Below are positions 17,667 to 28,050 of a stretch of 54,488 nucleotides of DNA, one piece after another. The stretch is from the NCBI GenBank assembly GCA_945878525.1, contig CAMCTU010000004.1, positions 1 to 54,488 of the forward strand, written 5' to 3'. The position numbers were made by a program, and so were the translations under genes. The notes under the pieces are model-generated. The model ran no database searches. It saw only the letters and a program-made list of their open reading frames with translations, and was not told where the DNA came from. Each line of letters starts with the position of its first letter. Position 1 is the first letter of the stretch. Origin of the DNA: Sphingobacterium thalpophilum. Lineage in GTDB: Bacteria > Bacteroidota > Bacteroidia > Sphingobacteriales > Sphingobacteriaceae.

Positions 17667-20501
17667 ATGAAAAAATTAATACATAATGTCCTTTATATTA
17701 GTGTATTTACGTCATTTATATTATGTTTGAATGTAGTAACAGTTTTTGCCCAAATTTTTAACTCTGAACAGAACCCTTCGGGTATAAAATGGATGCAGAT
17801 TCGGACTGAAAATTTCCAAATCATCTATTCTCTTGAACTTAGTGATGAGGCTCAAAGAATGGCAAATACCCTTGAACATCTGATTAGCGGGGTCAGTAAA
17901 TCACTCAATAAAAAGCCTAGACCAATAACTATAATACTTCAAAATCAGGCTGTCATTTCCAATGGTTTTGTACAGCTTGCACCCAGACGCTCGGAGTTCT
18001 ACACTACACCACCTCAGAACCTCGACTTCCAGGATTGGCTTAATGGATTGGCCATACATGAACTCAGACATGTAGTACAGTTTGATAAATTGAGTCCCGG
18101 ACTAAAGGCTCCATTTTTCGAAGAATTAGCACTTGCCATTTTCGGAATCAGTCTCCCTCCCTGGTTCTATGAAGGTGATGCTGTTGGAATGGAAACTGCA
18201 CTAAGCCATGCTGGTCGCGGCAGGCTTCCGGATTGGGAGCTGGTTTTCAAAACAAATACACTAAGTACCCTTCCCTACTCTTATTCAAAAAATTATTTCG
18301 GGTCATTAAAAGACTTCACTCCCGGATACTACCAACTCGGTTATTTCATGACCACAAAGCTGAGAAGAGATTATGGGACAAATATTATTGATAGTGTCTT
18401 AACAAGGGTCGGCAGAAATCCGTTAAGACCATTCAACCTCAGTAATTCGATTAAAAAATTTACGGGTCTGAACAGCAAAATGCTTCACGATACAACAGTT
18501 ACTGAACTCAAATCACTTTGGCAAAAACAATCCGCTGCATTGATACCGGTAAATTATGTGGCACTAAACAAGAGAAGGGATTCCTTACCGGCAGACTACC
18601 TGCTGCCGGTAAGCAGTTACAAAGGTGAAATTATTGCTTTGAAGCAAAATCTGACGAATACTCCAGCATTAATACTAATCAACTCTGAAGGCAGTGAGCG
18701 TGTACTTCTTAAAATAGGCTTTCAAACCGAGTATAATTTCAGATATGCTGCAGGGAAAATTGTTTGGGATGAATTGAGATTTGACAAGCGCTATGGAAAG
18801 CGGTCTTTCAATGTAATTAACATTTACGATATAGCAAGTAGGGTAGTTAAACAGATTACTCATAAAAGCCGATTGTTCTCTCCTAGCCTTTCTCCGGATG
18901 CTAAAAAAATTATAGCAGTTAAAATCAGCACCTCTAACCTATTCTCCTTGATTGAACTGGATTCAGAAAATGGAAATATCCTGAAGGAATATCCTGTAAA
19001 AGAAGGATTAAGTCTGCAAAGTCCATCATATAATGAACAGGGAGATAAAATAATTTCTGTTTTGATGAGCAAGGATGGTGCAGCACTCATAGAATTCAAT
19101 CAAGCAGATGGAAGCCAAACTATAATCTCCCCATTTCAAAGACAGCAACTCAGCCGTCCGGTTTATGCCGGCAAAAATATTTTATTCAGAGCACATTATG
19201 AGGGCGTTAACAATATTTATTTTCTTACGCCTGAGAAGAAAGTGATTTCACTGAGCGCGGTATCTTTCGGGGCTACCAATCCATCTTATGACAAGGAAAA
19301 TAACAGATTACTTTTCAATAATTATCAGATCAAGGGGTACGATATAGCGAGTATACCCTTAGATCTGCAGACTCCAAACCGGGAACTAGCAAATACTTTC
19401 ATAGATTATGCATCAATAATTGTTGATCAGGAAGCCAATTCAACTATTCTAGACTCAATACCTCAAAATAAATATCCTGTCAAATCCTACAAGGAAATTA
19501 ATAATTTATTTAATTTCCATAGCCTATCTCCAATTGCAAAAAGCAGTGAAACGAATAATGAACTGAGTATTGGTTTAAAGATAAAATCAAATAATCAGTT
19601 AAACACCCTTGATCTTTTTGGCGGCTATCAATATAATTCAGGTTTGAGAAGGAGTGAATATGTAGCTGGTATAAGTTTTAAACGTTTTTATCCTATTCTG
19701 GACATTACCTATACAAACCGGGCTAATCTAAACTTCTATAAGCAAAACAATCTTTTGGTTCCTGTAAACTGGCGTGAAAATCTTACCGAAGCTGAATTAA
19801 CAATTCCATTTATTTTTAACAGACTCAACAAAACTTACAGAATGGGTTTGAGGAGTTCAACTAGCTTTACCTCAAGGTATGACATTCAAAATAAACCCAA
19901 TAATTTCATTAATAAACTTAAATTTCCAATGAGATATCAAGTATATTTCAGTCGGAATACCCAGCGTAGTTTAAGGGACCTTGCACCTGCCTGGGGACAA
20001 AATTTTTCTTTTTCCTATGCACATCTTCCATTCCAGAACTTACTTATTGGTAGACTAATATCCTTTAAAAGCGTAATTTATATGCCCGGATTAATGAGTA
20101 ACCATTCATTCCAAACCAGTTTCAACTATCAGAATACTAGTGGAGCCTATAATTTTAATATAGAAATTCCAAGAATTAGCGGGTATGCTAATTTAAGGCT
20201 AAATAGCCGGCTCAGAAACACACTCTTGTTAGATTACAACTTCCCACTCTTCTATCCTGACTCTGAGATTGGCCCTTTTGCTTATATTAAACGAGTGAAA
20301 GGCGGTATTTTTGCTGATTTTGAGAATATTGGAAAAAGTGCCCCATTCCAGCCACGTACCTTCGGATTAGAATTAAGCACAGACATGAACCTGATGCGTT
20401 TCCTGCTTCCAAATTTCGAACTTGCTGGAAAACTAATACTATCAAGGGATAATGGAATCCGGAAACCTATCCTGGAATTTGGATTTTTATATGATTTTTG
20501 A
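17667..20501 (+). CDS. secreted HELRH metallopeptidase-like / propeller / probable outer-membrane barrel protein
   Basis: I do not recognise a named family. The 944 residues start with a signal peptide (about 1-29, ending VFAQ). Residues 40-290 resemble a gluzincin (peptidase MA-like) domain: zinc motif HELRH (131-135) in a helix, and WFYEGDAVGME 34 residues later, where E169 could be the third ligand. Residues about 300-570 have TolB/PD40-like strands (SPSLSPDAKKI). The remainder (about 620-944) alternates aromatic and polar residues in strand-turn pattern, ending in FGFLYDF with a terminal aromatic, as outer-membrane barrels do. Protease activity is predicted, not shown. Confidence 0.7.
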   Translation: MKKLIHNVLYISVFTSFILCLNVVTVFAQIFNSEQNPSGIKWMQIRTENFQIIYSLELSDEAQRMANTLEHLISGVSKSLNKKPRPITIILQNQAVISNGFVQLAPRRSEFYTTPPQNLDFQDWLNGLAIHELRHVVQFDKLSPGLKAPFFEELALAIFGISLPPWFYEGDAVGMETALSHAGRGRLPDWELVFKTNTLSTLPYSYSKNYFGSLKDFTPGYYQLGYFMTTKLRRDYGTNIIDSVLTRVGRNPLRPFNLSNSIKKFTGLNSKMLHDTTVTELKSLWQKQSAALIPVNYVALNKRRDSLPADYLLPVSSYKGEIIALKQNLTNTPALILINSEGSERVLLKIGFQTEYNFRYAAGKIVWDELRFDKRYGKRSFNVINIYDIASRVVKQITHKSRLFSPSLSPDAKKIIAVKISTSNLFSLIELDSENGNILKEYPVKEGLSLQSPSYNEQGDKIISVLMSKDGAALIEFNQADGSQTIISPFQRQQLSRPVYAGKNILFRAHYEGVNNIYFLTPEKKVISLSAVSFGATNPSYDKENNRLLFNNYQIKGYDIASIPLDLQTPNRELANTFIDYASIIVDQEANSTILDSIPQNKYPVKSYKEINNLFNFHSLSPIAKSSETNNELSIGLKIKSNNQLNTLDLFGGYQYNSGLRRSEYVAGISFKRFYPILDITYTNRANLNFYKQNNLLVPVNWRENLTEAELTIPFIFNRLNKTYRMGLRSSTSFTSRYDIQNKPNNFINKLKFPMRYQVYFSRNTQRSLRDLAPAWGQNFSFSYAHLPFQNLLIGRLISFKSVIYMPGLMSNHSFQTSFNYQNTSGAYNFNIEIPRISGYANLRLNSRLRNTLLLDYNFPLFYPDSEIGPFAYIKRVKGGIFADFENIGKSAPFQPRTFGLELSTDMNLMRFLLPNFELAGKLILSRDNGIRKPILEFGFLYDF

Positions 20502-20649: not shown

Positions 20650-20946
20650 ATGTCCTTTAAAACCATCTTTATCATCGTTGTATCGGTACTTGTTACCATT
20701 ATTTTAATGAATAATACCGACGAAATAAACTTTTGGCTTTTCGGAAATGCCAGAATACCTAAACTGGCGATTCTAGGACTTATGTTCGGACTTGGACTTA
20801 TTATAGGATTCATTGCAGGCCGACCAGGTAAGAACTCCCAAAAAATTTCCAATAATGATTCTGATCCATCACCTTATAATAGTTCAGATAGTAGTGTGAA
20901 AGACCAGGATCTTTTAAGCGATGAGGACCGCGAATACATCCGGTAG
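20650..20946 (+). CDS. small LapA-domain-like membrane protein
   Basis: A 98-residue protein with two hydrophobic helices (about 3-21 and 38-57) separated by a short loop INFWLFGNARIPK, then a hydrophilic, Ser/Asp-rich tail. The arrangement, with NNTDEINFWLFG between helices and GLIIGFIAGRPG ending the second, fits the LapA/DUF1049 group of small inner-membrane proteins, whose E. coli member assists LPS assembly. Such short proteins give weak assignments. It has its own putative promoter and stands between the 944-residue gene and susC. Confidence 0.6.
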   Translation: MSFKTIFIIVVSVLVTIILMNNTDEINFWLFGNARIPKLAILGLMFGLGLIIGFIAGRPGKNSQKISNNDSDPSPYNSSDSSVKDQDLLSDEDREYIR

Positions 20947-21241: not shown

Positions 21242-24200
21242 ATGAAACAAATTTCTACTTTTTTATTTTTACCCATTTTATTGTTTCTAACTATCAGTGT
21301 TCAGGCACAGGTAAGGGAGATAAGCGGGAAAGTTACCATCGCCGAAGACGGATCCAGTCTTCCGGGAGTAAGTGTAAGAGTTAAAGGCACTAGTACCGGG
21401 GCAGTTACAAGTCCGGAAGGTACTTACCGCATTCAGGTACCGGGCAACGGTTCGATACTCGTTTTCACTTTCATGGGTTTTTCGGTTAAAGAAGTTGCTG
21501 TAGGCACTCAGAGCACCATCAATGTTGCCATGGATACAGACAGCAAACAACTTCAGGAAGTGATTGTTACCACAGGATTTGGTATTACCAGGCAGCAAAA
21601 ATCTCTGGGATATGCTGCTCAAGGAGTTAATTCGGAAGAATTAAACATCAATCGCCAACCAAATATTCTGAATGCATTGCAGGGTAAGATTGCAGGTGCA
21701 ACCATCAGCAGCGTTGGTGGAGGTCCGGGACAGGGAGCAAACATCCGTATCCGGGGAATTAACTCAATTGATGCATCCGCGTCAAACGATCCACTTTACG
21801 TCATTGATGGAGTACAGATAGATAACTCCACATCAACACAAGGTGCAGGAGCAGGAACAAATGTTCGTTCGGTAGGAAACAGGGCATCCGACCTAAACCC
21901 TGACGATATCGAAACAATAAATATCCTTAAAGGAGGTGCTGCAACAGCCATGTATGGTCTGAGAGGATCAAATGGTGTTGTTTTGATTACCACGAAAAAA
22001 GGTAAAACTAATGAAGTCAGAACCAATTTTTCAAGCACTTATGGCTTAGAAAACATCAATAAGACTCCGGCAGTTCAAACGGAATACACTGCAGGTATTT
22101 TAGGTGTTTATACTCCGGTAGGACTTGGTCCAGCTTGGGGTCCAACCATTGCAGAAGCAAAGGCAATAGACCCGACACATCCTGATTTTCTATACCAGAA
22201 TTATAAAAATGCATTTGACACTGGAAGCCAACTAAGAAACACAGTTTCGGTTACAGGTGGTTCGGATGCTGTAAAAATCTTCTCGTCCGTATCTCAGTTT
22301 AATCATGATGGAATGCTCCCATTTACAGATTATCAAAATCTTTCAGCAAGGTTAAACACTGATATCAAAATCAGTCCGAAAATTATTGCAGGAATGAATT
22401 TGAGCTATAATAATTCGGGAGGTTATCGTTTTGATGCCGACCGTTATGGAGAGAGTTTAACTTATTTCTCAGGTCGCTGGGATGTGAGAGACTATATTAA
22501 TCCAGATGGGACACAGCGATGGAGAGGAACAAACAACCCGATCTTTGGAGCTGCAACAAACCGATTGAAAGACAATGTAAACCGTTTTATTGGTGGAGCT
22601 AATTTTGGATATTCACCTACTTCCTGGTTAAATTTTAATTATCGCTTAGGTGTTGATACTTATACAGATGCCCGTAAACGTACTGCTCCAGGCAGATTAG
22701 GTATTCCTGGAGAAGCTGTATATGATAATGCGGATGGTTTTGTTGGTGAATACCTTACTCAGTATCGTGCAATCAACTCTACCTTTCTTGCCACAGCTTC
22801 GAAGCAGATCACTAAAGACATTAATGGAACGCTAAGATTTGGATATGAACTTTATGACAGAAGTGCAAAAGATTACGGTGTTTTAGGAAGTGTTTTAAGT
22901 ATTTACAATGATTTCAGGTTAATGAATGCCAAAACTCTTCAGGTAAATCAGGGTTTAAATCAATATCGTTCTAATGGTTTTTTTGGAGAAGCTACTTTTG
23001 ATTATAAAAACTATCTTTTCCTGACTTTAACCGGTCGTAATGATATTACCTCAACCCTTTCTTCAGAAAACAGGTCATTCTTTTATCCTTCTGCTAGTTT
23101 GAGTTATGTATTTTCAGATAATATGAAATTACCTGAATTTATTGGTCAGAGTAAATTGAGATTATCTTATGCTAAAATAGGTAAAGATGCAGCTCCTTAT
23201 TCTACATCGTCAGGATTTTCAAATTATAGCGGATTACCTACAGGAACTACCGGCTTGACTTTAGCTTCAAATCTTGGGGATATAAATTTGAGACCTGAGT
23301 TTACTGATACTTACGAGGCAGGACTTGAAATGGCATTCTTTAAAAATAGATTGAGTTTTGACCTTACTTATTATTATTCCTTAAGTAAGGACCAGATTAC
23401 ACAAGCTCAAATATCCTCAACAACAGGTTTTGTTACTGCTTCAATCAATGCAGGATCAATACGCAATAAAGGTATTGAGCTTGTTTTGGGAGGAACACCA
23501 ATTCAAACAAAGGACTTTACATGGGATGCCTCACTTAATTTCTCTGCAAACAGAAACAAAGTAATAAGCCTTAAAGAAGGTTTAACGGAGATTATCTATG
23601 GTGCTGCTACTGGTGGTTATATTAACTCACCGGTACAATTCAGATTGATTCCAGGAGAGCCATATGGTAATATTTATGGGTCCTACTACCTACGTTCTTA
23701 TGGTACTGCTGTAGAAGATCCAAATCGTACGGATAAATCCAAACCATTATTGATTGGCGCTAACGGTTTTCCTATTTCATCGCTTACAAGAAGGAAATTG
23801 TTAGGAAATTCACAACCTGACTGGATTGGTGGTATGTCAAATAACTTCACTTATAAACGTGTAACATTATCAACATTGATTGATGCTCGTTGGGGATTTG
23901 AAAAGTTCAACAGACTGGAAAATTTTAATTCGGCTTTTGGTATTGCTGATTATACATCAAACCGCAGAAGCTATTATACTTTCCCTGGAAATCTTGCTGA
24001 TGGTACTCCTAACACCAAACAAGTGTGGTTAGGTCAGGCAATCGGTCCGGATGGTGTGAATTATGGAGAGGGATATTACAGACTTTACCACAGATCACTT
24101 TCTGAGCCATTTGTTCAGGATGCTTCGTGGATCCGTTTACGTTCAGCAAGTCTCTCTTATGCATTACCATCTAAATGGTTACCTAGAAAGGCAATTCGTA

Positions 24201-24367
24201 ATGCATCTGTCGCATTTACAGGCAATAACTTACTATTACGTACAAACTACTACGGTCTGGATCCCGAATCATTATCTGCTGATAGCGGAAGCAACGTGGA
24301 TGGTTCGGCAGGTATGACATACCCTGCAGCAAGAACATTCCTATTTTCACTTAATGTTGGCTTTTAA
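21242..24367 (+). CDS. SusC/RagA-family TonB-linked outer-membrane transporter
   Basis: Outer-membrane pore that imports oligomers captured by its SusD partner, powered by TonB. In 1041 residues: signal peptide (1-22), a CarboxypepD-regulatory-like domain (about 25-105, ISGKVTIAEDGSSLPGVSVR), a plug beginning LQEVIVTTGFG and containing NIRIRGINSID and VIDGVQIDN, then a large beta-barrel ending LFSLNVGF with a terminal Phe. The plug segment GGAATAMYGLRGSNGVVLITTKKG is typical of SusC. Followed by susD 5 bp later. Substrate is unknown; the S9 peptidase next door suggests peptides. Confidence 0.95.
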   Translation: MKQISTFLFLPILLFLTISVQAQVREISGKVTIAEDGSSLPGVSVRVKGTSTGAVTSPEGTYRIQVPGNGSILVFTFMGFSVKEVAVGTQSTINVAMDTDSKQLQEVIVTTGFGITRQQKSLGYAAQGVNSEELNINRQPNILNALQGKIAGATISSVGGGPGQGANIRIRGINSIDASASNDPLYVIDGVQIDNSTSTQGAGAGTNVRSVGNRASDLNPDDIETINILKGGAATAMYGLRGSNGVVLITTKKGKTNEVRTNFSSTYGLENINKTPAVQTEYTAGILGVYTPVGLGPAWGPTIAEAKAIDPTHPDFLYQNYKNAFDTGSQLRNTVSVTGGSDAVKIFSSVSQFNHDGMLPFTDYQNLSARLNTDIKISPKIIAGMNLSYNNSGGYRFDADRYGESLTYFSGRWDVRDYINPDGTQRWRGTNNPIFGAATNRLKDNVNRFIGGANFGYSPTSWLNFNYRLGVDTYTDARKRTAPGRLGIPGEAVYDNADGFVGEYLTQYRAINSTFLATASKQITKDINGTLRFGYELYDRSAKDYGVLGSVLSIYNDFRLMNAKTLQVNQGLNQYRSNGFFGEATFDYKNYLFLTLTGRNDITSTLSSENRSFFYPSASLSYVFSDNMKLPEFIGQSKLRLSYAKIGKDAAPYSTSSGFSNYSGLPTGTTGLTLASNLGDINLRPEFTDTYEAGLEMAFFKNRLSFDLTYYYSLSKDQITQAQISSTTGFVTASINAGSIRNKGIELVLGGTPIQTKDFTWDASLNFSANRNKVISLKEGLTEIIYGAATGGYINSPVQFRLIPGEPYGNIYGSYYLRSYGTAVEDPNRTDKSKPLLIGANGFPISSLTRRKLLGNSQPDWIGGMSNNFTYKRVTLSTLIDARWGFEKFNRLENFNSAFGIADYTSNRRSYYTFPGNLADGTPNTKQVWLGQAIGPDGVNYGEGYYRLYHRSLSEPFVQDASWIRLRSASLSYALPSKWLPRKAIRNASVAFTGNNLLLRTNYYGLDPESLSADSGSNVDGSAGMTYPAARTFLFSLNVGF

Positions 24368-24372
24368 AGAAT

Positions 24373-25824
24373 ATGAAAATGCTTAAATTAAATAAATATA
24401 CCCTAATCATTTTAGCCACATCCGTATTAGCTTTAAATGGCTGCGGAAAGGAGTACTTTGATGAGCTTAGTACTAACCCTAATCAGGTAAGTATTGCCAC
24501 GCTCCCGGCTCTTCTGTCTACCTCTACGAGCAAGGCAGGCCTCAATACATTCACAGTAGGCAGCAATACCTCAACGTATGTACAATACACTGCAAACCCA
24601 GTTGCTGCTTCAGCTAGTGATATATATGAAACCATTGACCATACCGGAATGTGGGATGCCCTTTATTTCGCGATGGCCGATGTTGATCAAATGAAAAAAC
24701 TAGCTGTTAGTCAGGGTTCAAGTGAATACCTTGGTGTTGCAAATGTGTTAATGGCATATAACCTGATGCTGGTCAACAATCTCTGGGGAGCTGCACCTTA
24801 TTCTGAGGCATTCAATCCAAACAACTTTACTCCAAAGTATGATACCGACCAGGCAGTTTACGCTACGACATTATCACTTATAGACGAAGCAATTACTGAA
24901 TTAGCAAAAACTACTTCGACTATCAAATTAGCTGCTGCGAGTGACTTGATTCATGCCGGTGATCGTACCAGATGGTTAAGAACAGCTCATGCTTTGAAAG
25001 CCAGACTGTTAATCAAAACCAGCAAAACTACCACCTATAATGCAGCCTCAGTTTTAACTGCGGTAACAAACTCTTATGCTTCAAATGCTGATGACGCTGG
25101 TATGGCAACCTTTGTATTGCGAAATAACTGGGCTACTGTTTCCAGAAATAATGCTGCTTTGAGCCTTGGAGGTTGGTTATCAGAACAATTTATTGATCAC
25201 CTAAATGGAAAAACGTATGGTCTTTTTGATCCAAGAATCAGGAGAATAACTGACGTAACTGTTGTTCCTGGGAATCCAAATTATCCTGCTTATATCGGTA
25301 CTGTAAATGGGGCGGGTAACCGACTTAATCCCCCGCACAACAACACCATCAAGGATGAGAATTATATATCGTTCAATTCTCCCTGGACCAGTGATACAGC
25401 TCCAATCTTGATCATGACATTTGCAGAACTGAAATTCATTGAAGCTGAAGCTGCATTAGCCACAGACCGTACCAGAGCATACACAGCTTATCTGGCGGGA
25501 ATCAGGGCTAACATGGATAAATTGCTTGTACCTGTCGCCGAACGTGATGCATATCTGGCTGATGCACGTGTAGCAGTAGGATCAGCTAACCTTACAAGAG
25601 ACCTAATACTAAAAGAAAAGTACGTTGTAACCTACCTTAATCCGGAAGCATTCAATGATGTCCGCAGATATGATTTTATGTATAAAGATTTCACAATGCC
25701 ACTGAATTCGGTTTTGACTTCTCATTTGAGAAGATTCGATTATCCATTGGGTGAACGAGCCAAAAATGGCGCAAGTGTACCCGCTGGTGTTCCTAGAACC
25801 ACTAAATTATGGTGGGATTTATAA
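24373..25824 (+). CDS. SusD/RagB-family surface lipoprotein
   Basis: Substrate-binding lid of the SusCD transporter. Lipobox LNGC places the acylated cysteine at residue 24. The 483-residue protein has helical repeat segments including MWDALYFAMADVDQMKK and NVLMAYNLMLVNNLWGAAPYSEAF, and the C-terminal MTFAELKFIEAEAAL typical of SusD-like proteins (often the SusD/RagB group 2 form). The spacing of 5 bp to susC and the terminator at 25848-25875 indicate a two-gene operon. Confidence 0.92.
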   Translation: MKMLKLNKYTLIILATSVLALNGCGKEYFDELSTNPNQVSIATLPALLSTSTSKAGLNTFTVGSNTSTYVQYTANPVAASASDIYETIDHTGMWDALYFAMADVDQMKKLAVSQGSSEYLGVANVLMAYNLMLVNNLWGAAPYSEAFNPNNFTPKYDTDQAVYATTLSLIDEAITELAKTTSTIKLAAASDLIHAGDRTRWLRTAHALKARLLIKTSKTTTYNAASVLTAVTNSYASNADDAGMATFVLRNNWATVSRNNAALSLGGWLSEQFIDHLNGKTYGLFDPRIRRITDVTVVPGNPNYPAYIGTVNGAGNRLNPPHNNTIKDENYISFNSPWTSDTAPILIMTFAELKFIEAEAALATDRTRAYTAYLAGIRANMDKLLVPVAERDAYLADARVAVGSANLTRDLILKEKYVVTYLNPEAFNDVRRYDFMYKDFTMPLNSVLTSHLRRFDYPLGERAKNGASVPAGVPRTTKLWWDL

Positions 25825-25944: not shown

Positions 25945-28050
25945 ATGAAAAAATATTCTGTTTTTTTTGTCCTGCTCTTGAACCTAACAATATATACTAC
26001 ACAAATTGCTGCACAATCTTATTCAGTTGAAAGTATTTTAAGCTATCCATTTCCTTCTGAACTTGTGAGTAGCTCAGGAGGTTCAAAAATTGCCTGGGCA
26101 ATGAATGAAAAAGGTTTGCGAAATATTTATGTAGCCGATGGACCGGATTTTAAACCCAGGAAGTTGACAGAATATAGCAAAGATGATGGTCAGGAGATCA
26201 GCAGCTTATCTATTTCTACTGATGGGAAATGGATTGTGTTTGTTCGAGGCGGGGATCATGGCTCGAGAGAAGCAAGTATCCCTGTACAGGCTGCATTTGA
26301 TCCACTCGGTGCGAAAGTTCAAGTAATCAGTATCCCGTTTGACGGAGGAAAGCCTATCATCCTTGGAGAAGCCGATTATCCTGAAATTTCACCGAATAGT
26401 GAAAGGGTCAGCTTCATTAAAGGCGGACAAATCTGGTCTGTAGCCATAAACGGCTCTGCACCGGCAAAAGCCCTCTTCTATGCCCGTGGGTCGAATGGCT
26501 CAGTAAGATGGTCACCGGATGGTTCAAAATTAGCCTTTGTGTCTTCCAGGGGTGATCATTCATTCATTGGTATTTATACTGATGACGAAACCCCAATAAA
26601 CTGGATATTACCATCCTTTTCGAGGGATTCATCACCAAGGTGGTCTCCTGACGGGCAAAAAATCGCATTTATCAGAACACCGGGGTCGGGTGGTGCTCCC
26701 GATTCTATCTTTGCAAGAAAACATCAGCCTTGGGCGATCTGGACAGCCGATATTGCTGCCGGTACAGGAGAACAGGTATGGAAAGCTCCAGAAACTCTTG
26801 AAGGTTCAATTCCTTCCACGGAAGGCGGCACAAACTTAAACTGGGCAAAACAGAACCGCATTGCTTTCGTTTCATTTCAGGATGGATGGCCGCATCTATA
26901 TTCAATTCCTGCTAATGGAGGTAAAGAACTGTTATTAAGTCCAGGGAATTTCATGGTTGAACATGTTAAAATTAGCCCTGACGGTAATTCAATTATTTTT
27001 GCAGCAAATACAGGGGAAGACAAATTCGATCTGGATAGAAGACACATTGGCAAAGTTAAGGTCGATCAAGCAGGCGTTGAAATACTCACAGAAGGTATTG
27101 GGATTGAGTCTAACCCTGTTTTTACCGGTGATCAGCAATCGATTGCCTATTTAAGTTCAACTGCACAAAGGCCTTTACTTCCTGCAGTAATGAATTCGAA
27201 TGGAAAATCTCATAAGCTGCTGTGTGAGGATCTTTTACCGAAAAATTTTCCACAAAATCAACTGGTGAGTCCGAAACATATCACTTTTAAAGCCCCGGAC
27301 GGTCAAATCGTTTACGGGCAATTATTTGAACCCAACAATCGTTCTTCAACTAAAAAACCTGCCATTGTATATGTTCATGGCGGTCCACAGAGGCAAATGC
27401 TTCTTGGATGGCATTTTATGGACTACTATTCGATAGATTATGCACTAAATCAATATTTAACAAGCTTAGGATTTACTGTCTTATCTGTTAATTACAGACT
27501 AGGGATTGGATATGGTTTCAAATTCCAAAAAGCAATCAATGCAGGAGCTTTAGGTGCTTCAGAATACCAGGACGTTAAAGCTGCAGGAGAATGGCTTGCT
27601 GCCCAGCAAGATATAGACCCCGAAAGGATTGGAATTTATGGCGGTTCTTATGGCGGCTATCTGGTAGCATTGGCATTAGGAAAGGATTCAAAGCTATTTG
27701 CCGCTGGAGTTGATATTCACGGGGTAAACAACCGTTTTAGCAGCTCAATGTCCGGTAACAGAGCGCTTGCACCGGATGCCGAATCAGCAGAGCAGGCGAT
27801 GATCAAATCTTCACCAGTAAGCTACCTCGATACCTGGACTTCCTCTACCCTAATCATTCATGCAGATGATGACCGGAATGTTTCTTTTAGTCAGAGTGTG
27901 GATTTGGCGAGAAGATTTGAAGACAAAAAATTCCCTTTTGAATACCTAGCTATCCCGGATGATACCCACCACTGGATGAAATTTAGCAATGCCTTGAAGG
28001 TGAGCGAAGTTACCGCAGATTTTTTGAGGAGAAAACTTGTGAAACGATAA
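25945..28050 (+). CDS. S9-family prolyl oligopeptidase-like secreted peptidase
   Basis: A 701-residue serine peptidase expected to cleave short peptides in the periplasm. A signal peptide (1-23, ending IAAQ) is followed by a beta-propeller (about 40-430, with repeated SPDG-type turns such as VRWSPDGSKLAF and PRWSPDGQKIAF) and an alpha/beta-hydrolase domain (about 440-700). The nucleophile is S568 in GIYGGSYGGYLVA; Asp lies in HADDDRNVSFSQ and His at 675 or 676 in DDTHHWMKF. It has its own transcription unit after the susD terminator. Substrate preference (dipeptidyl versus acylaminoacyl) is undecided. Confidence 0.92.
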   Translation: MKKYSVFFVLLLNLTIYTTQIAAQSYSVESILSYPFPSELVSSSGGSKIAWAMNEKGLRNIYVADGPDFKPRKLTEYSKDDGQEISSLSISTDGKWIVFVRGGDHGSREASIPVQAAFDPLGAKVQVISIPFDGGKPIILGEADYPEISPNSERVSFIKGGQIWSVAINGSAPAKALFYARGSNGSVRWSPDGSKLAFVSSRGDHSFIGIYTDDETPINWILPSFSRDSSPRWSPDGQKIAFIRTPGSGGAPDSIFARKHQPWAIWTADIAAGTGEQVWKAPETLEGSIPSTEGGTNLNWAKQNRIAFVSFQDGWPHLYSIPANGGKELLLSPGNFMVEHVKISPDGNSIIFAANTGEDKFDLDRRHIGKVKVDQAGVEILTEGIGIESNPVFTGDQQSIAYLSSTAQRPLLPAVMNSNGKSHKLLCEDLLPKNFPQNQLVSPKHITFKAPDGQIVYGQLFEPNNRSSTKKPAIVYVHGGPQRQMLLGWHFMDYYSIDYALNQYLTSLGFTVLSVNYRLGIGYGFKFQKAINAGALGASEYQDVKAAGEWLAAQQDIDPERIGIYGGSYGGYLVALALGKDSKLFAAGVDIHGVNNRFSSSMSGNRALAPDAESAEQAMIKSSPVSYLDTWTSSTLIIHADDDRNVSFSQSVDLARRFEDKKFPFEYLAIPDDTHHWMKFSNALKVSEVTADFLRRKLVKR

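Follow-up and report, generated by a model that had tools for sequence, protein, structure and literature searches.

A probable outer-membrane-anchored zinc metallopeptidase with a TolB-like propeller and a POTRA-less Omp85-type barrel in Sphingobacterium thalpophilum

The gene and its neighbours

The window, by which we mean the whole stretch of 54,488 nucleotides analysed here, contains an uninterrupted open reading frame with an ATG start (17667-20501, +) that encodes a protein of 944 amino acids. The gene is present once in the host draft genome of 3.07 Mb. Compared with close relatives it has an overall dN/dS of 0.07-0.12, so purifying selection acts on it, which rules out a chance reading frame. 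For the peptidase domain the value is 0.04-0.05 in the same kind of comparison, with dS near saturation in two of the three comparisons.

The genes on the 5' side are tgt, one for an LptF/LptG permease and one for an EamA transporter; on the 3' side comes a small membrane ORF of 98 amino acids, followed by SusC, SusD and an S9 peptidase. The order from tgt through the LptF/LptG permease, the EamA transporter and our gene to the small ORF is retained in about 19 related loci, all in the home family. Outside this family the neighbours of the homologues differ, and we found no conserved operon partner. Because the synteny is restricted to the home family, we dropped the idea of reading a function from the operon context and draw no functional claim from the neighbours.

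The small ORF (20650-20946, +) has two hydrophobic segments and looks LapA/DUF1049-like by eye; it had no Pfam match at E 0.001, and its relatives adjoin the barrel gene in the 19 home-family loci. Further on, the SusC/SusD pair (21242-25824) is directly followed by an S9 prolyl-oligopeptidase with a PD40 propeller (25945-28050, +), which suggests a peptide-uptake locus. A few of the related loci contain the same trio. The neighbour of the gene in a distant genome is an ORF of 1619 amino acids (L066:3383-8242, -) whose start is TamB-like by eye; we did not see this ORF in the remaining loci that we inspected. Rfam gave zero matches over the window, and a search of a plasmid collection gave none.

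Domains of the predicted protein

The chain begins with a Sec signal peptide, recognised from the sequence at residues 1-28 (17667..17750, +), with an expected cleavage site at A28|Q29. We aligned 49 sequences, which share between about 26% and 97% identity with the 944-aa protein along its full length; 48 of them retain Q29. Cleavage before a residue conserved in this way fits the Bacteroidetes Q-rule for signal peptides (PMC10653852).

We modelled the full chain with AlphaFold2 from 20 sequences (pLDDT 75.8, pTM 0.64). A fold search with the full model probed the propeller alone, and we therefore folded the barrel separately.

Residues 36-292 (17772..18542, +) make up a Peptidase_MA_2-like gluzincin domain, which was placed by hhalign comparison to relatives and is the most conserved part of the chain. 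It carries HELRH at residues 131-135 (18057..18071, +) in a predicted zinc-binding helix. E169 (18171..18173, +), in the motif P-x-W-x-x-E-G-D-A, is the presumed third zinc ligand. In the full-chain model HELRH is helical (helix 93-114 in mature-chain numbering) and E169 sits in the next helix (137-151); parts of the domain have a low pLDDT of 37-60. An HExxH with a downstream glutamate is the zinc site of a gluzincin (clan MA), and zinc binding is predicted on this basis.

A Pfam scan of the 944-aa protein gave nothing significant (Peptidase_MA_2 stayed under the threshold) and NCBIfam gave a weak TolB match only. PDB sequences were searched with the 944-aa protein and with separate profiles of the N-terminal domain and the barrel, and no match was found. 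Weak Pfam matches to CIDE-N, Imm26, DUF1360 and others had few members and low scores, and we put them down to chance. The domain is instead recognised through longer relatives of 1070-1300 aa from the same phylum. Seven of these were scanned with Pfam, and PD40 and Peptidase_MA_2 both score in six; Omp85 scores also occur among these relatives. By hhalign, the N-terminal domain matches the longer relatives that score with PF13485 at 99.5% (E 2e-23) and proteins above the PF13485 cut-off at 95.7% (E 9e-9); in the latter comparison the reversed, FadL and Omp85 controls gave 0.1-0.2%. M1 aminopeptidase reached only 1.4%, and we rejected it as the nearest gluzincin. In these alignments E169 falls on the WxxEG glutamate of the Peptidase_MA_2 relatives. 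Each of the 17 longer relatives of this kind has both HExxH and this glutamate. About 10 of them had been chosen by propeller match alone, so that the peptidase head was not a criterion of their selection. The search for peptidase MA and PD40 profiles that had been proposed from the sequence alone thus found none significant in the protein itself, while its longer relatives do match and are tied to it by hhalign.

The peptidase domain is followed by a six-bladed TolB-like beta-propeller at residues 293-569 (18543..19373, +). Its match to TolB is strong by structure (VIA-align Z 23.8 with 243 residues aligned at an rmsd of 3.1; Foldseek E 7e-8) and weak by profile (TIGR02800, E 1e-4, 21 bits against a cut-off of 343). 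TolB shares the fold, but is a soluble Tol-Pal component with an N-terminal domain of its own. Between propeller and barrel the model has a linker of about 50 residues (19374..19520, +), in which the only secondary structure predicted is a pair of short helices and a strand of three residues, with no POTRA and no alpha/beta domain. Omp85 subfamilies without POTRA have been published, WD40-Omp85 and noNterm among them (PMC4104836), so the missing POTRA is no bar to Omp85 membership.

The chain ends in a predicted 16-strand Omp85-type transmembrane barrel (19521..20498, +). The 16 strands appear in two separate AlphaFold2 runs, one of the full chain and one of the barrel alone (pLDDT 80, pTM 0.72). 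With the barrel alone, all 50 matches listed by Foldseek (E down to 3e-6) and all 50 listed by VIA (Z 16.0-19.2) belong to the Omp85 superfamily, and they include BamA from several phyla, TamA, Sam50, FhaC, CdiB and Toc75-type proteins. The best VIA match listed has a Z of 19.2 with 302 residues aligned at an rmsd of 4.1. As modelled, the barrel has an Omp85 superfamily fold. At the level of sequence, a direct Pfam scan of the barrel gave no Omp85 match, and direct hhalign to BamA barrels was not significant (4%, score 27, with controls at 15-19). The homology therefore rests on an intermediate family together with the predicted fold: the barrel of the 944-aa type matches that of the longer relatives at 90% (E 1.6e-6), and the latter matches BamA barrels at 96% (E 1.5e-9), with FadL, SusC and reversed controls at most 0.4%. 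A comparison with the barrels of other PF13485 proteins was invalid, since those loci end before the C-terminus, and we left it out.

A long L6-like loop lies between strands 11 and 12 (20133..20216, +) in both models, with (R/S)GY at residues 838-840, which we compared to the Omp85 L6 motif (V/I)RG(F/Y). G839 is present in 48/49 sequences and Y840 in 38/49, while residue 838 is R in 19/49 and S in 19/49, including the 944-aa protein. The barrel closes with the strand E-F-G-F-L-Y-D-F, which resembles a beta-signal; its terminal residue is F here, and F or Y in 39/49.

The sequence-only reading had picked out the signal peptide, HELRH with E169 as a gluzincin-type third ligand, the TolB-like propeller and a barrel-like C-terminus closing on an aromatic residue, and all of these are supported; none of the outcomes that it had named as refuting was observed.

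Conservation and relatives

The catalytic part is the one most strongly guarded by selection, as seen in both the dN/dS and the conservation of each domain. Identity to distant homologues is 38% in the peptidase domain, 22% in the propeller and 21% in the barrel, and the invariant columns number 23, 2 and 5, respectively. H131, E132, R134, H135, Q138, P164, W166 and E169 are invariant in 49/49 sequences; the four zinc-site residues whose conservation the earlier reading had singled out for checking are among them. G170, D171, A172, E176, T177 and G183-G185 are also invariant in 49/49.

The nearest named relatives are a metagenome-assembled genome labelled Sphingobacterium (97%), then Daejeonella, Arcticibacter and Olivibacter; one Prolixibacteraceae metagenome-assembled genome has a homologue at 30% identity. 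Of 395 genomes drawn from across the phylum, 158 had some match and about 38 had a strong, near full-length match. A profile of the N-terminal domain matched 24 of 198 genomes of the class, in a single copy each time. With so patchy a distribution, its role is not generally essential.

By its architecture the 944-aa protein would belong, as a divergent form without POTRA, to the WD40-Omp85 subfamily, which was described in 2014 by Heinz and Lithgow as a propeller joined to an Omp85 barrel (PMC4104836). In both, a TolB-like propeller immediately precedes the Omp85 barrel and POTRA is absent, and both are uncharacterised. The difference is the zinc-peptidase domain ahead of the propeller. The word 'peptidase' has zero occurrences in the main text of PMC4104836, and the 'Metallo' class of that paper is based on PF00149 and is unrelated to the zinc peptidase head. 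The claim that no named family has this order of domains therefore stands in part. Propeller and barrel are a published pair, and Pfam models cover all three domains in one of the longer relatives (L112), which is jointly above the curated cut-offs for Peptidase_MA_2 (33.2 vs 32.4), PD40 and Omp85 (33.7 vs 24). For the three-domain form itself we found no paper in the open-access literature.

With Peptidase_MA_2 (PF13485) the protein shares HExxH and the WxxEG third ligand, and with the longer relatives it shares the domain order as well. It differs from the longer relatives in length (944 aa against about 1070-1300 aa) and in having a barrel that falls under Pfam Omp85 detection. Compared with close Peptidase_MA_2 relatives, it carries a distinct motif, GDAVxxETxLSxxGRGR, and the long insert that those relatives have between HExxH and WxxEG is mostly missing.

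Topology and proposed role

The even number of strands, the C-terminal beta-signal and the L6-like loop put both ends of the modelled barrel most likely in the periplasm, and the head, that is, peptidase domain plus propeller, would then be periplasmic too. We think it probable that the protein works as a zinc metallopeptidase anchored in the outer membrane, and that it is a divergent WD40-Omp85 in which a Peptidase_MA_2-like domain and a TolB-like propeller precede a POTRA-less 16-strand barrel. The three-domain architecture is well supported; the periplasmic topology, zinc binding, proteolysis and a quality-control role are what we infer. In the open-access literature we found no biochemistry on any member.

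After Sec export and removal of the signal peptide, BAM would insert the barrel, and the peptidase domain and propeller would hang on the periplasmic side of the outer membrane. Zinc held by H131, H135 and E169 would activate a water, with E132 as the general base, and the propeller might be a docking platform or a gate. The role of such a periplasmic metallopeptidase is likely to be quality control or processing of envelope proteins. By analogy with BepA, its task would most likely be to cleave misassembled or immature envelope proteins near the outer membrane. In E. coli such cleavage at BAM is done by BepA, a separate protease of the M48 family (PMC8423444). This is an analogy only, in that both would be zinc peptidases that cut outer-membrane proteins close to BAM; BepA is soluble and has a TPR domain.

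The sequence-only reading had placed the protease at the cell surface, which would require that the head crosses the membrane, either in an autotransporter-like way or by one of the surface-export routes typical of the phylum. The Omp85 relatives FhaC and CdiB do transport proteins outward, and surface proteins are abundant in Bacteroidota. Against this, the strand number, beta-signal and L6-like loop all place the barrel ends in the periplasm, and the signal peptide is a Q-rule one and not of the lipoprotein type. There is also a precedent in PlpD of Pseudomonas aeruginosa, a patatin-Omp85 protein with an enzyme head N-terminal to its barrel: the head was formerly thought to be secreted and was found by experiment only in the periplasm (PMC11116518). 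PlpD differs from the 944-aa protein in having a lipase-type head and POTRA and no propeller. We regard a surface location as unsupported and very improbable, and note as a caution that 'protease plus barrel' need not mean 'protease outside'.

The protein might instead be mainly an assembly factor or insertase, with a barrel that inserts or moves clients, a BamB-like propeller and a zinc domain that trims or holds clients. Every characterised Omp85 member before PlpD works in protein assembly or translocation (PMC11116518), and Heinz and Lithgow liken WD40-Omp85 to a BamA-BamB fusion (PMC4104836). However, the model of the 944-aa protein has no POTRA domain, the barrel is conserved far less than the peptidase domain (21% vs 38%), and the arginine of the L6 RG(F/Y) motif is missing. 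The genome also holds three further Omp85 proteins recognised by Pfam, so the 944-aa protein is no substitute for BamA. We consider a main role in assembly somewhat unlikely. In a more novel reading, a single chain could carry out outer-membrane quality control as a BamA-, BamB- and BepA-like fusion in which the barrel engages intermediates, the propeller holds them and the protease destroys the failures. We hold this to be unlikely; if true, it would give a biochemical function to the orphan WD40-Omp85 subfamily. The HExxH-E site might also bind zinc and cleave a non-peptide substrate, or be a non-catalytic metal-binding scaffold. E176-T177 and G183-R184-G185 beside the site are invariant and specific to this family, which has no characterised member. 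What makes this distinctly doubtful is that the four catalytic residues, including E132, are invariant in the 49 aligned sequences and in the 17 longer relatives, and that the closest curated family is Peptidase_MA_2.

If outer-membrane proteins are indeed what the metallopeptidase we favour acts on, Bacteroidota would have in it an equivalent of BepA that is part of an Omp85 protein. WD40-Omp85 is a barely studied Omp85 subfamily without a known function, and the PlpD paper calls its members intriguing targets (PMC11116518). With a conserved zinc-protease head, one active-site mutation could separate the enzyme from the barrel.

Another common Peptidase_MA_2 group in the same phylum (L160-L179) has proteins of about 1050-1130 aa with HELVH...WFNEGLA, in one to several copies per genome; the loci analysed stop short of their C-termini. 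The protein at L116:1823-5047 (+), of 1075 aa, has HELVH and PD40 without the WxxEG pattern; its Pfam scan gave PD40 only, and it is probably a separate multidomain metalloprotein.
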